DNA of 64,000 nucleotides from Prolixibacteraceae bacterium (GTDB taxonomy: Bacteria; Bacteroidota; Bacteroidia; Bacteroidales; Prolixibacteraceae), in contig JAQUIJ010000009.1 in the NCBI GenBank assembly GCA_028683385.1, forward strand, positions 124,001-188,000, written 5' to 3'. The notes beneath the pieces were generated by a model. It saw only the letters and a list, made by a program, of their open reading frames with translations. It searched no databases and was not told the origin of the DNA. Position numbers and translations under genes: made by a program. Positions 17,397 to 57,208 of this stretch are shown here, piece after piece (within the stretch, counting starts at the first letter, position 1; every line of letters begins with the position of its first letter).

Positions 17397-19418
17397 ATGA
17401 AGACTTTTCAACGATTATTTATATTCCTCATCCTGTTTTTTTCATTTGCTAAATCTTCTGTAGCCCAAAAGTCGATGTCTGATGTGCCTGTTTTTGGAGC
17501 ACAGATTTTTATCGAACCAGGTCAAACTCCGGAAGATATTGATACCTGGTTTCGGATGCTGAAAGGAAACGGCATGAAAACCACACGGATCCGGATGTTC
17601 GAATCGTACATGCACAAAGCGGATGGAACCTGGGATTTCAGTTTGTTTGATTTGGCTTTTAAGTCAGCCGATAAATATGGAATTCAGGTTTATTGTACCA
17701 TTTTCCCATACACCGAAAAAACTGATATTGGTGGGTTCAAATTTCCACGTGACGAAGTTCATCTTCAATCAATCGCCCTGTTTATTGAAAAGCTGGTGAC
17801 ACATTTCAGTCAGTATAAAAGCATGTATGGTTGGGTTTTAATCAACGAACCTGGTGTTTCCGGAAATATTCCGTCTACTGAATTTACGAAAGCCAAATAC
17901 CAGGAATGGTTGCAAAAAAATCCACAAAGCGAGTTTGTTAAAAATGGTTACCCAATTTTGGTTGAGTTGACCGATCAACGTTTTTTACTTGATTACAATA
18001 CCTGGTTTCTGAACTGGATTGCCACTGAAATCAAGAAGTGGGATGCTAAACACGTGCTGCACGTCAATAATCATGCGATGTTTCAGAACTGTGCCGAATA
18101 CAATTTCCCGGAATGGCGGAAGTTCCTGACCACTTTGGGTGGTTCTGCCCATGCCAGTTGGCATTTTGGATATTTCAAGCGTGAACAGTACGCCATGGCT
18201 ATGTCTGCTAATAGCGAAATTGTGCGTTCCGGAGCGGGCGAATTGCCATGGATTATGACCGAAATTCAGGGAGGAAACAATACATACAGCGGAATGGCGC
18301 CATTTTGCCCGACTAAAAACGAGATTGCCCAATGGATGTGGGTCACCGTCGGAACTCAGGGCAAAGGTGGAATCTTCTGGTCGCTGAATCCACGTTCATC
18401 GGGAATTGAAGCAGGAGAGTGGGCCATGCTCGATTTTCAGGATCAACCTTCGGATCGGTTGATTGCCGCTGCTGAAGTTTCAAAAGTAATTGACTCCAAA
18501 CCAGAACTGTTTGCCAATGCACGTGAAGTAGAATCCGGAATCAACATTTTGTATGTACGGCAGTCGCTTTGGGCTGAGAAGAAAATGGCATCGCCTTCGG
18601 TGCAAAATTATGAAGGCCGTTTGGTTGGCGGAGTCATGAAATCGGCCTTAGGTTATTTCGAAACGTTTTCGGAATTGGGCATCAATTGCAGCCTGAAAGA
18701 ATTCGGTGAGTTTGATTTCACGAAGGATGATTATTCTGGTTCTACAATTATTCTGGCACATCAGATTTCCATTCCATCAGAATATGCTCCAAAATTGGAA
18801 GCTTTTGTCGCTAAAGGTGGGAAGTTGATTGTCGATGGATTGACTGGTTTTTTTGACGATAACCTGCACAACACTATTAAAACTGGATTCCCTTTTGCCA
18901 AATTGTTGGGGGGAAATATCAGTGAATTCAAGGCTGTTGATAATTTGTTTGACGTAAAAATAGATCAGCTCACTTTGCCGGCTCACCTTTGGAGAGGTTT
19001 TATCCGGAATACATCCGGGAAAGTAATCTCGACTGTTGATGGCGAACCTGTGGCTACCCGAAACCAATTCGGAAAGGGCGAAACCTTATGGATTCCTTCT
19101 TTACTTGGTTTGGGGGCACGTTTGGGAGGAAACGAACAATTGGCTCAATTACTGGCTCAGGAACTGAAGCCTAATTTCAATAAAGCGCCTTATTCTTTTG
19201 CGTCGCAGCAAAAAGGAATGTTAATGAAGACATTGCAGTCGGGTGATTCGTACATTACCATTTTTGTAAATAAATCAAAAGATTTGAAACGGATTGCTCT
19301 AAATACTACCGATAAGTTTAAAAAGCCCTCTACCTTATTTGCCGACAAAAAAGGAACTGTTTCTGGCGAAACTATTTCTATTTCTCCAGAGGAAACTATG
19401 GTCATTGAGTGGAAGTAA
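17397..19418 (+). CDS. exported clan GH-A glycoside hydrolase (GH42 beta-galactosidase-like)
   Basis: A 673-residue secreted enzyme with a TIM-barrel catalytic domain followed by a GH42-like trimerisation/flavodoxin-like region (residues about 440-570, LVGGVMKSALGYFETFSELG to GKLIVDGLTGFF) and a short beta domain. The signal peptide ends near KSSVAQ. Acid/base Glu151 is in WVLINEPG and the probable nucleophile Glu289 in WIMTEIQGG, the spacing expected of clan GH-A. The upstream GTG at 17349 in frame is rejected because it would overlap the -7 box and bury the signal peptide. Substrate (beta-galactoside, arabinogalactan or other) cannot be fixed; no sugar transporter lies beside it. Confidence 0.75.
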   Translation: MKTFQRLFIFLILFFSFAKSSVAQKSMSDVPVFGAQIFIEPGQTPEDIDTWFRMLKGNGMKTTRIRMFESYMHKADGTWDFSLFDLAFKSADKYGIQVYCTIFPYTEKTDIGGFKFPRDEVHLQSIALFIEKLVTHFSQYKSMYGWVLINEPGVSGNIPSTEFTKAKYQEWLQKNPQSEFVKNGYPILVELTDQRFLLDYNTWFLNWIATEIKKWDAKHVLHVNNHAMFQNCAEYNFPEWRKFLTTLGGSAHASWHFGYFKREQYAMAMSANSEIVRSGAGELPWIMTEIQGGNNTYSGMAPFCPTKNEIAQWMWVTVGTQGKGGIFWSLNPRSSGIEAGEWAMLDFQDQPSDRLIAAAEVSKVIDSKPELFANAREVESGINILYVRQSLWAEKKMASPSVQNYEGRLVGGVMKSALGYFETFSELGINCSLKEFGEFDFTKDDYSGSTIILAHQISIPSEYAPKLEAFVAKGGKLIVDGLTGFFDDNLHNTIKTGFPFAKLLGGNISEFKAVDNLFDVKIDQLTLPAHLWRGFIRNTSGKVISTVDGEPVATRNQFGKGETLWIPSLLGLGARLGGNEQLAQLLAQELKPNFNKAPYSFASQQKGMLMKTLQSGDSYITIFVNKSKDLKRIALNTTDKFKKPSTLFADKKGTVSGETISISPEETMVIEWK

Positions 19419-54174: not shown

Positions 54175-54738
54175 ATGCTATATAGATGCGAGTGGTCACA
54201 AAAGAACGAGATTTATTCGAAGTATCACGATGAAGAATGGGGAAAGCCCTTACACGATGATCAAAAGTTGTTTGAGTTTTTGATTTTAGAAGGTATGCAA
54301 GCAGGCTTAAGCTGGATAACTATCCTGAAAAAGAGAGAAGCTTTCAGGATTGCGTATGAGAATTTTGATGTTCACAAAGTGGCCGGTTTTGATCAGCAAA
54401 AAGTTGAAGAGTTAATGTCGGATTCTGGAATTATCCGAAACAGATTGAAAATTGAAGCAAGTATTAATAATGCCAGGCGTTTTCTTGAGGTGGTTGAAGA
54501 ATTTGGAAGTTTTGATTCGTATATGTGGAGTTTCGTTGATCATCAGCCAATTGTTAATCATTGGACAAAACTCTCGGAAATACCTGCAAAAACAGAACTT
54601 TCCGATCGTATTAGCGATGATTTGAAACGAAGGGGATTCAAATTTGTGGGATCTACCATTATCTATTCACATTTGCAGGCAACCGGTGTAATTAATGACC
54701 ATTTGGTGAGTTGTTTTTGCCATCCGGACAATCATTAA
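54175..54738 (+). CDS. tag: DNA-3-methyladenine glycosylase I
   Basis: Removes 3-methyladenine from alkylated DNA. It is 187 residues with the Tag fold: RCEWSQKNEIYSKYHDEEWGKPLHDDQKLFEFL-type N-terminus (start shown in part), the EGMQAGLSWITILKKREAF helix-hairpin segment and the C-terminal SHLQATGVINDHLVSCFCH. The structural zinc ligands should be Cys5, His18, His176 and Cys180. It stands alone on the plus strand; no terminator follows it in its own direction. Confidence 0.95.
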   Translation: MLYRCEWSQKNEIYSKYHDEEWGKPLHDDQKLFEFLILEGMQAGLSWITILKKREAFRIAYENFDVHKVAGFDQQKVEELMSDSGIIRNRLKIEASINNARRFLEVVEEFGSFDSYMWSFVDHQPIVNHWTKLSEIPAKTELSDRISDDLKRRGFKFVGSTIIYSHLQATGVINDHLVSCFCHPDNH

Positions 54739-54792
54739 TAAAAGAGGATTACCTTGAGACTAATTTGGAGTATTAACGAAAGTGTCGGTCAC

Positions 54793-54908
54793 AAAAAAAA
54801 GAAAAAAGGATAGATTCTCTAATCTACCCTTTCTCTAAACCTAACTAAACCTAACTAAACTAACTAAACCAATAAAACTAATCAAACCTAACTTATGAAA
54901 TGTGATAA
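54793..54908 (-). ncRNA. candidate repeat-rich small RNA
   Basis: About 115 bases on the minus strand with no gene. Minus-strand RNA from a -7 box at 54921-54914 would run through TTAGGTTTGATTAG and then units TTTAGTTAGTTTAGTTAGG and TTTAGTTAGGTTTAG (plus-strand 54832-54893), into hairpin AAAGGGTAGATT-AGAG-AATCTATCCTTT (54832-54805) and a U tract TTTTTTCTTTTTTTT. One stem position is a G-U pair in minus RNA but an A-C mismatch in plus RNA, and the T tract exists only on the minus side, so transcription is toward the minus strand. Function unknown. Confidence 0.5.
54805..54832 (-). terminator. intrinsic terminator of the small-RNA candidate
   Basis: Stem plus 54805-54816 with 54821-54832, loop CTCT, followed on the minus strand by the T tract over 54807-54793. 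It does not suit the plus-strand tag gene, which lacks a T tract after the stem. Confidence 0.65.
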
Positions 54909-54913
54909 CGTTA

Positions 54914-54921
54914 CAAAGATA
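54914..54921 (-). promoter_or_regulatory. -7 box of the small-RNA candidate
   Basis: TATCTTTG on the minus strand, an exact TAnnTTTG match. A clear -33 TTG at the usual distance is missing (TTAACAC is there instead). Confidence 0.5.
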
Positions 54922-55219
54922 GGCTGTTGAAATGAGATAGGTGTTAATCGAACATTAATAAATGTGCTGAAAAACATTAATTTGTCTGTTTAATGTTTCC
55001 TGTTTGTTAAGCATTTGTCTGGGTGTTAGATTCAAATTGAAGTAAATCAGTTGTTTCGTATTTTTTAATCGAATTCAATTCGATTAGATTTCAAAAAATA
55101 CATTCTTCAGAATTCAAAAAAGTTTGAATAATAGGTTATTCCTGTTTTTATTTTGAGCTATACTTCTTTTCGATGTTTCGCAGGCCTAAGTCGAAGTAGT
55201 CCGTCCAGTTATTGAATCA
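54922..55219. other. AT-rich intergenic DNA
   Basis: About 300 bases between the small-RNA candidate and the comEC stop codon. I see no gene, no clear hairpin and no repeat here. Confidence 0.4.
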
Positions 55220-57208
55220 TTATTTCAAATTAAGAAGGTATGCGCCATCTGATTTGGTGTAAGAGTTGATTGTAAATTCCTGATTTACTTTGTAATTTGG
55301 ATATCCGGTGGAAATATTTGTGTTTTTATTTTGTGTTTGAACAGATAAAATATCGGAGTTTTTAAATTTTGAATGTTCTTTAAATTCGATTGAGCAGTTT
55401 AAAAATTGAAGATTACTTCCGTCCAGAACTAAATCCACCGAATGAAAATTGTTAATGCTTGATTTATAAAGAATAACTGGATTATTTAGTTTTAGTTGTG
55501 CAATTACTTTTTGTGTCATTTTTAAATCATTTTCAGGAATTGTTGAACCATTTGTTACCAGATAATTGTTGCGCCCGTTTATTAGGTGAATCATAGTATT
55601 TCGGGTGTTGTAAACAAAAATTTGCTTCTGGTTCAGTAATTTGAAATTCGTTGATAACACCGAGCATTGCAACACTATGATCAGGAAAAGTTCATAGAAC
55701 AACCATTGTTTCTTTTTCGAAAATCCATAAATTAAAAGCATTATTATAGTGCCGTACAAAAGCCAGACTTGTGCCGTTGATAATATAATTCCTTTAGAAA
55801 CAGCAATTGGCTGAGCATCCATTTCTTTAAGCGCCGCAAGCATAGCGTACGTCAGCTTTTGAATGATTTTGCCAATAAATAAGCCAAGGCCATGAAAAGG
55901 ACTAAGAATGAAGAAAGCAATGCCGAACCACATAATGAAAGTTGTTATTGGAACAACCACAAAATTACTTAGCCAAAACAGGTTCGGAAATTGGTTGAAA
56001 TAATAGAATCCCAGAGGGAAAGTCATGAGCTGTGCCGCTACAGAAACCGTAAATAAGCTCCATGTCCATTTTAGTATTGGATTTGTGAACTCAAAAATGT
56101 TGTTTAATGCCGGTTGAATAAGAACAATTCCAAAGATTGCCAGGTATGAAAGTTGAAACCCAACATCGAAAAGGACGTTAGGATTTAGCAAAATCAGGAA
56201 TAGGGCAGAGGCGGTAAGCGAATTGTAGATGTTGACTGGCCTTCGGATATTATTTCCGATAATGACAAAGGTAAACATCACCGTTGCCCGCTGAACTGGA
56301 GGCGAAAATCCTGAAATAAAGGCATAAATCCACAAAAAAGAAATCATTACCACTGAGAAAATAATTGGTCCAATTTTCCCTCGTTTCAGAAACGCCAATA
56401 GAAATCCGAGAATCATGTAAATTAAGGCTACGTGCAATCCTGAAACCGACAGCACATGCATGGCTCCCGTGGATGCAAAATAATCACGAGTATCCTGAGC
56501 AAGCTCTGTGCGGTACCCCAAAGTCAGCGCCGAAACCACTGATCGCTCTTCTTTGTTGGGCAAAGCTTCAGTCAGCAATGCGATAAGCCGATCGCGAACT
56601 TTTTCTGCCAAATTACCGATGTGAATAATCTGATGACCCGTCTTTAAATACATTCCATTTGTTAGGTAAACTGAAAACCATATGTTTCGCTGGTGCATCA
56701 ATGACTGATAATCGAATTCAAATGGGTTACCTGCATTCTTGATCGCTTGCGGTTTAGCTAGGATAATCAATTGATTTCCGGTAGTTATTGTCGAATCAAA
56801 TCCAACCTTGCTGAAATAGGCAATAACTTTTTCGGGCGCTTTTAATTTATCATTTTGAATGAGCAGGATGGTTTGGAAAGTCTTTGCTTTTTCTCCTGGC
56901 TTTTGGCAAACTTCAGCCAAATAATAGTCTTTTCTGATAAAATCAAGATCTTTTTTTTCGACGGTATGATTCGGATAAAAAGCTCCCAGAAGTGCTATGG
57001 TTAGCGCGAGTATTGCATTTTGAATCCTGATGGAAACAAAATTACTAGTATGCCAGAATAAAATCAGTGTTGAAATGAGGATTGCCAAAACAATGGCAAT
57101 CAGGCGTATATCAAGATTGAAGAAATGATTGACCAGAATGCCTATCAGGAAAAGACTAGTTATCCGAATAAAAGGAATCTTCTGGAAAAAGCTTCTTGTA
57201 ACTGGCAT
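55220..57208 (-). CDS. comEC: ComEC/Rec2-family DNA-uptake channel protein, no C-terminal hydrolase domain
   Basis: A 662-residue polytopic membrane protein. The N-terminal DUF4131 region (residues 1-185) with three helices is followed by the competence domain: GYRTELAQDTRDYFASTGAMHVLSVSGLHVALIYM, SGFSPPVQRATVMF and WIYAF... helices, up to about residue 510. The last 150 residues have lost any HxHxDH metal motif of the metallo-beta-lactamase domain found in full-length ComEC. It is thought to move single-stranded DNA across the inner membrane. Transcribed away from def and ruvX with a 120-base gap. Confidence 0.85.
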   Translation of the reverse strand: MPVTRSFFQKIPFIRITSLFLIGILVNHFFNLDIRLIAIVLAILISTLILFWHTSNFVSIRIQNAILALTIALLGAFYPNHTVEKKDLDFIRKDYYLAEVCQKPGEKAKTFQTILLIQNDKLKAPEKVIAYFSKVGFDSTITTGNQLIILAKPQAIKNAGNPFEFDYQSLMHQRNIWFSVYLTNGMYLKTGHQIIHIGNLAEKVRDRLIALLTEALPNKEERSVVSALTLGYRTELAQDTRDYFASTGAMHVLSVSGLHVALIYMILGFLLAFLKRGKIGPIIFSVVMISFLWIYAFISGFSPPVQRATVMFTFVIIGNNIRRPVNIYNSLTASALFLILLNPNVLFDVGFQLSYLAIFGIVLIQPALNNIFEFTNPILKWTWSLFTVSVAAQLMTFPLGFYYFNQFPNLFWLSNFVVVPITTFIMWFGIAFFILSPFHGLGLFIGKIIQKLTYAMLAALKEMDAQPIAVSKGIILSTAQVWLLYGTIIMLLIYGFSKKKQWLFYELFLIIVLQCSVLSTNFKLLNQKQIFVYNTRNTMIHLINGRNNYLVTNGSTIPENDLKMTQKVIAQLKLNNPVILYKSSINNFHSVDLVLDGSNLQFLNCSIEFKEHSKFKNSDILSVQTQNKNTNISTGYPNYKVNQEFTINSYTKSDGAYLLNLK

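Follow-up and report, generated by a model that had tools for sequence, protein, structure and literature searches.

What lies between the methyladenine glycosylase gene (54175-54738, plus strand) and the ComEC-like gene (55220-57208, minus strand) of this environmental Bacteroidales genome and, if it is an RNA, of which kind? The window, i.e. the whole stretch of 64,000 nucleotides analysed here, leaves a gap at 54739-55219 between these two genes. Both turn their 3' ends to the gap, so that an element located there is the leader of neither. The original prediction placed in it, on the minus strand, a small RNA made of TTTAGTTAGG-type repeats with its own promoter box and terminator. Judged by its sequence, the element appears to be a conserved small-RNA gene, most likely encoding a divergent FopS-like sRNA.

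Organization of the element

Box, repeats and hairpin with its U tract were all confirmed on the minus strand of the gene gap, at 54793-54921. Read on this strand, the order is the TATCTTTG box, which we take to be a Bacteroidota TAnnTTTG-type -7 box, then ...GUUAUCACAUUUCAUAAGUUAGGUUUGAUUAGUUUUAUUGGUUUAGUUAG..., the TTTAGTTAGG-type units, the hairpin and the U tract. The features are listed below, type A being the window's own type among its relatives.

54793-54921, minus strand: small-RNA element (box, repeats and terminator), in the gene gap
54942-54958, minus strand: upstream element TTAATGTTCGATTAACA, a TTAAC-/TTAAG-type sequence found upstream of many family members
54914-54921, minus strand: promoter -7 box TATCTTTG, with TAnnTTTG letters that all 18 aligned orthologues share
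54793-54909, minus strand: putative transcript of about 117 nt, its start put 5 nt past the box, following the 5' ends of FopS
54892-54897, minus strand: CATAAG, whose CAU is complementary to an AUG start codon; common to the paralogues, with CATGG or CATAG in FopS
54860-54897, minus strand: best-conserved 5' block CATAAGTTAGGTTTGATTAGTTTTATTGGTTTAGTTAG of the type A alignment, the proposed seed
54835-54893, minus strand: TTTAGTTAGG-type repeats, variable in copy number among orthologues
54802-54835, minus strand: terminator hairpin of 15 pairs, from a terminator scan and compensatory changes in orthologues
54793-54800, minus strand: terminator U tract, from the sequence

Tandem Repeats Finder described 54835-54893 as an array of period 10 (6.2 copies, 78% matches, 11% indels, score 76), with the unit CTAAACCTAA on the plus strand and TTAGGTTTAG on the minus strand. 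There is overlap between this array and the conserved 5' block, which begins UUCAUAAG and is the best-kept part of the element; the array also reaches the foot of the terminator stem. The terminator hairpin, with 3 G-C among its 15 pairs, a 4-nt loop and the tail CTTTTTTTTG, was the only site in a terminator scan of 54700-55000, where shuffled sequences averaged 0.1. Folding of 54788-54906 gave -23.1 kcal/mol (z -2.73), with 2 of 200 shuffles as good. The prediction that the repeats stay unpaired has to be weakened: the predicted mean unpaired probability is 0.51 over nt 1-40 and 0.46 over nt 1-75, and about the first 16 nt are the only stretch of the transcript predicted to be open.

The upstream TTAATGTTCGATTAACA has its sole exact match of the window at 54942-54958. 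Taken alone, its enrichment in the window is not significant (with up to one mismatch, 4 matches vs 1.92 by chance, a number reached by 12 of 100 shuffles). No match to Rfam at gathering scores and no tRNA by ARAGORN were found in the window.

Conservation of type A orthologues

A DNA search matched 25 of 41 genomes, including 22 of 23 genomes of the same genus (own genome included in both counts), some of them through paralogues only. The single match outside the family, in genome G029 (E 9.5e-4), appears not to be a member. Type A loci numbered 19 in the 41 genomes, own included (L032-L050), of which 18 were aligned. The locus left out, L044 in genome G020, is a type A orthologue that carries CAGAAG for CATAAG and no exact box, and is possibly a decaying copy. 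An exact 20-mer scan of a contig collection returned 11 stretches, among them 2 from Prolixibacteraceae and 1 from Draconibacterium; matches in Shewanella, Vibrio, Enterococcus and Prometheoarchaeum were taken as chance.

Besides the box, most letters of TTCATAAG...GGTTTGATTAG were invariant across the 18 aligned loci. The distance from box to CATAAG varied, with a longer insert in several loci, which means that the type A seed need not lie right at the 5' end. Orthologues contained 0-2 exact TTTAGTTAGG units and 1-3 copies of TTTAGTT(A/G)G. The TTTAGTTAGG units are the least steady part of type A and the 5' block is the best kept. Accordingly, the description of the RNA as made of repeats needs amending: the period-10 array is present, while what is kept is the block around CAUAAG. 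Homologous loci do retain the parts jointly: across the 18 aligned loci, terminator, box and 5' block are conserved side by side, the repeats being the part that varies in number.

The type A helix was paired in 98.5% of alignment cells and showed 7 double changes vs 0.6 in shuffles, a number reached by 0 of 500. Of the 15 pairs, three consist mostly of G-U when read on the minus strand and would be A-C on the plus strand, in line with the strand argument made at first from a G-U pair. An alternative is that the feature belongs to the plus strand, where it would be either a leader rich in A and C that carries a start codon (AACCTAACTAAACC...ATGAAA) or the terminator of the glycosylase gene. 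The plus-strand sequence does resemble a start region of Bacteroidales, and the hairpin lies about 64 bases past the glycosylase stop. However, both the box and the long run of T belong to the minus strand, no more than an 11-codon frame (MKCDNVTKIGC) exists on the plus strand, and the model R1 matched the plus strand with 13.5 bits against 67 on the minus strand (54797-54912, E 1.6e-9; the training set of R1 included orthologues of the window element). We regard a plus-strand feature as highly improbable; the hairpin might conceivably be shared as a terminator for the glycosylase gene.

The glycosylase gene was present in the fetched flank of 13 of the 19 type A loci (own included). It adjoined the element in 6 of them, including L048 from another genus, and lay about 1.2-1.3 kb off in the other 7.

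Paralogues in the genome and the family

The genome carries at least six family members, all of which have a CAU antisense to AUG. The six are the window copy, two of type B (on contigs C12 and C37) and three tandem copies of type E on contig C8, and boxes were seen upstream of the paralogues. Type B reads ACATTTTTTTTCATAAGTTTAGGTTTAGTTAGGTTAGTTAG..., then a hairpin and a T run; many of the genomes have it at more than one place, in different flanking sequence. Type E starts with TTTTTTTTCATAGA...; the third C8 copy is the weakest, with 27.2 bits. In the C8 trio (L191:1075-1572, minus strand) every copy has a box and a hairpin, the U run and CATAGA being alike and the hairpins different. A further place in this genome, C51:425764, scored 50.1 bits and was not counted, having neither CATAAG nor a box.

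In 38 aligned type B copies the helix was paired in 99.4% of cells, with 33 double changes vs 10.8 in shuffles (reached by 0 of 500). By a fixed-rule script, TAnnTTTG was located within 75 nt upstream in 59 of 64 family members, which are related rows and not independent, vs 3.2% of random 75-mers; the box started 22-24 nt before CATA in 50 of the 64. Dropped from these counts were L062 and L109, which are not members, L142, which lies at a contig edge, and L044, which the script missed because of its CAGAAG. TTAAC or TTAAG was found within 75 nt upstream in 56 of 64 members, as a raw count. The TTAACA-type sequence upstream of the box is often doubled (TTTAACATCATTTAACA in type B copies) and could be a shared regulator site.

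That the element is an RNA gene of the minus strand, with a promoter and a terminator of its own as first proposed, is well supported by box conservation in type A and across the family, together with the helix covariation. These data also speak to a quite different explanation, namely a dispersed DNA repeat (REP- or MITE-like) without RNA function, in which the terminator-like hairpin arose by chance. Such a repeat would account for type B bodies that are nearly identical between different flanks and that some genomes carry in several copies. It would not be expected to keep the box at a fixed 22-24 nt ahead of CATA, nor to show helix covariation with G-U pairs that fit one strand, and the recurrence of the glycosylase gene near type A loci is unlike dispersal. 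We therefore consider a DNA repeat very unlikely.

In genome G053, two different FopS-like elements stand head to tail within about 220 bases (L113:1359-1573), and the genome has other matches besides this pair.

Relation to FopS and GibS

According to PMC11697453, FopS RNAs of gut Bacteroides block the translation start of nutrient-uptake genes, and are bound by the RRM protein RbpB, which counteracts FopS repression in B. thetaiotaomicron; their conservation is described there within Bacteroidaceae. FopS and GibS are both presented as a 5' seed followed by a terminator, the seed pairing over start codons (PMC11697453, PMC7366714). The original prediction knew of no described family with the make-up of the window element; FopS (Rfam RF04319) and GibS have a layout of this kind.

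The likeness to FopS covers a multicopy state, a TAnnTTTG box just upstream, a 5' U run with CAU, UUAG-type sequence and a terminator. Checked one by one, these features are present here: CATAAG after three T near the 5' end, a 3' Rho-independent terminator, and several paralogues per genome (at least six) with their own promoters. The box was found within 20 nt upstream in 32 of 33 FopS copies from 30 fetched FopS loci. The two also differ. FopS is 65-70 nt long, against a putative 117 nt or so for the window member, in which CAU is preceded by just three U (in type B by eight T) and which carries TTTAGTTAGG repeats, whereas FopS has few UUAG-type units. Seed openness was predicted at 0.51 for nt 1-40 of the window member and 0.74 for nt 1-45 of a type B copy. 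GibS resembles the element in its extended single-stranded 5' seed pairing over start codons (PMC7366714), and differs by description in its 145 nt, two internal hairpins, second seed and promoter motif PM2.

The RF04319 consensus reads GUGUUUUUCAUgGUAUUAGAUUUAAGGUUAAuAAA, then a hairpin and a U run. Comparison with Rfam, which had been suggested as a check, gave a divided answer. The window element was not matched by RF04319 at the gathering score or with E relaxed to 10; a search with E up to 5 missed it as well, together with both type B copies of this genome. Two C8 copies were matched at 36.6 and 33.5 bits, the former being the best score of the genome, and elements of three other Bacteroidales genomes at 29-33 bits, all below the curated cut-off of 56 bits. 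In control genomes RF04319 matched 1 of 14 at E 0.01, the Bacteroides one, and 8 of 14 at E 5; weak matches therefore mean little.

The model R1 was built from types A, B and C, with FopS, D and E left out. It matched type D and E elements and locus L124 at 27-51 bits. On the 30 FopS loci it gave 28 matches, 24 of which sit on the FopS place of 24 loci, each of them weak (E 0.0074-0.68), with 6 of 30 loci giving no match.

Could the resemblance have arisen independently, from convergence on the same target? This variant of our preferred explanation, in which the sRNA arose as start-region antisense without kinship to FopS, draws on the fact that any RNA antisense to start regions carries CAU and U-rich sequence. 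A pattern scan of 149 genomes of the order gave matches in 21 of them, at 23 places, a few of which were real elements; many were gene starts read backwards or lay in genes. Both models, moreover, score weakly across the gap between FopS and types A and B. However, in the intermediates the match runs past CAU through UUAG and UUAAGGUUA, box and layout agree, and intermediates do exist. Independent origin seems unlikely to us, if less so than the two alternatives above. The element has a common make-up with FopS as far as sequence elements are concerned, and kinship between the two, linked through the intermediates, is probable.

Predicted pairing with translation start regions

All six copies of this genome place a CAU able to pair with AUG. 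The consensus of SusC starts here (matrix from 30 genes) is ...CAAATTTATGAAAAAAAAT, with AAA as second codon in 22 of 30. The position-matrix fit of the seeds was compared with that of 1000 shuffles, on the starts of 629 genes and of the 30 SusC genes. Shuffles as good numbered 1 and 0, respectively, for type B, 6 and 2 for one type E copy, and 0 and 7 for the FopS seed used as positive control. The fit of the window member was not significant, with 230 of 1000 shuffles as good for the 629 genes and 179 of 1000 for SusC; on SusC its reversed seed scored higher (10.16 vs 4.27). A longer matrix span, one base too long for FopS, showed no signal for that seed (406/500 and 219/500 shuffles as good), and the 1000-shuffle run used a shorter span for all seeds. 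With the longer span, 7 and 0 of 500 shuffles were as good for type B, 25 and 5 for the other type E copy, 2 and 8 for a type D seed and 99 and 57 for the window member.

Duplex energies at starts were also compared with those of stretches inside genes, the shuffle test covering 300 of the 629 genes. By two measures the window member was borderline, with 3/40 and 1/40 shuffles as good; the numbers out of 40 were 2 and 2 for type B, 0 and 0 for FopS, and 3 and 5 for type E. Raw mean energies scarcely separate starts from gene interiors: the window seed averaged -14.64 at starts vs -14.16 inside genes, and the reversed seed -14.57 at starts.

CTAA, the partner of UUAG, was most frequent in the two five-base bins that cover 6-15 bases ahead of start codons (38 and 34 occurrences); the two bins above these had 22 and 21, and bins further upstream 8-12. 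The reverse control AATC, commoner overall (245 vs 148 for CTAA), also rose (42 and 34 vs 23-29).

These results support start-region pairing for the paralogues, as a prediction from sequence. For the window member we infer it from kinship and from the kept CAUAAG. Its predicted duplex with the gene at 17397 (glycoside hydrolase family 42 domains) reaches -32.2 kcal/mol, which makes this gene a possible target.

A search of 25 genomes for the complement of the 30-nt type A block (up to 3 mismatches) returned nothing apart from the sRNA loci themselves, and no unique conserved target of the block was found among them. SusC leaders as direct targets of the repeats were not supported, CTAACTAAACC being present in 0 of 30 and CTAACTAAA in 1 of 30.

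Repeats and the RRM protein

Protein-sponge RNAs of the CsrB/RsmY type carry repeated short motifs able to hold an RNA-binding protein, and here lies their likeness to the window element. They differ from it in that the element has no repeated GGA stem-loops, and in that conservation lies outside its variable repeats. The repeats, though not the conserved core, might extend the pairing with leaders rich in A and C, or serve as a docking site for an RRM protein. The initial suggestion that the RNA may bind many targets or a repeat-binding protein is plausible. This genome encodes one RRM_1 protein (contig C23, L157:3942-4427, E 1.6e-25), which has a glycine-rich tail. The motif 5'-GUAGGAUA-3', cited in PMC12119571 as bound by B. 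thetaiotaomicron RbpB, and the window repeats have UAGG in common.

The element could then act mainly as a sponge, its UUAG/UAGG repeats titrating the RRM protein in the way CsrB titrates CsrA, with mRNA pairing secondary. Besides the shared UAGG and the presence of the RRM_1 protein, the UUUAGUUAGG-type units are several and variable in number, as binding arrays can be, and UUAG-repeat RNAs without the CAU element also exist outside the order. Set against this, conservation resides in the 5' block and not in the repeats, FopS has few such units, and RbpB is reported to relieve FopS repression in B. thetaiotaomicron (PMC11697453). A sponge as main function is of low probability, about level with independent origin; it overlaps with our preferred explanation, so that the two do not exclude each other.

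In open-licence PMC papers, the string TTAGTTAGG yielded, by title, no Bacteroidota RNA among the matches listed; one paper bearing it concerns Musashi, an RRM protein (PMC10942595). The string CATAAGTTTAG yielded nothing relevant by title in the same literature.

Proposed mode of action

Gene anatomy, conservation, paralogues and the link to FopS via intermediates are established here at the level of sequence. The explanation that we prefer, with good though not full confidence, is a divergent FopS-like sRNA that pairs with start regions and whose UUAG repeats extend the pairing or dock an RRM protein. The element would be a small-RNA gene in its own right and would belong, as a divergent member, to a multicopy group of Bacteroidales sRNAs that includes FopS. 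Transcription would begin just past the TATCTTTG box and end at the hairpin. The 5' part (UUUCAUAAGUUAGGUUUGAUUAG...), predicted to be open over about the first 16 nt and weakly self-paired beyond, would pair with start regions, CAU lying against AUG and the next UUAG/UUAGG against the A- or C-rich leader just upstream. Such pairing would block initiation, resulting in repression. The UUAG-rich repeats would lengthen the pairing and/or bind the RRM protein, by analogy with RbpB and FopS in Bacteroides.

A wider proposal can be put forward only tentatively, and we think it somewhat less likely true than false. All these elements might form one ancient, multiplying Bacteroidales sRNA class with a 5' end antisense to a generic start 'CTAAA..ATGAAA(AAA)', each copy damping a class of secreted or outer-membrane proteins. 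Variable UUAG/UAGG repeats would tune the hold of the RRM protein, and the window element would be a locus-bound, repeat-extended branch.

Bacteroides are said in PMC12119571 to lack Hfq, ProQ and CsrA. How sRNAs act with RRM proteins where these three are lacking is a question on which this family bears; as its members differ naturally in seed and in number of repeats, the roles of pairing and of protein docking can be tested directly.

Distribution in Bacteroidales and beyond

RF04319 at E 0.01 matched 108 of 393 genomes of the order, 75 of 393 above the cut-off, and the matches listed fall under at least 16 family labels. In the window's family it matched 1 of 5 sampled genomes, below the cut-off only; looser relatives there are of more variable forms, some of them repeat-extended. 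R1 at E 0.01 matched 57 of the 393 genomes, 5 of them of the same family, and 26 of 295 genomes in a draw from the class, 3 of them in the order. Since R1 matches also outside the order, its weak matches are not all signal.

Individual loci were read, 25 from 52 genomes of the order outside the family and 17 from 23 genomes outside the order. The CAU motif was found by script in 17 of 25 vs 1 of 17, and by eye in L250 and L257 in addition to the 17 of 25; the box was present in 13 of 25 vs 6 of 17.

Four loci outside the order, L269, L270, L272 and L280 (family label f131), show a box, a ACTAAAATATACTCCC-type start, GTTTAGTTAAGTTTAGTTAGGTTAGGTT and a terminator, without CAU. UUAG-repeat RNAs may extend beyond the FopS-like kind. 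Another locus outside the order, L281, the one among the 17 that has the CAU motif, carries TTTTTTTCATAGGTTTAGATTTAG followed by a terminator, with no exact box in the stretch read; it is FopS-like and looks like a real element.
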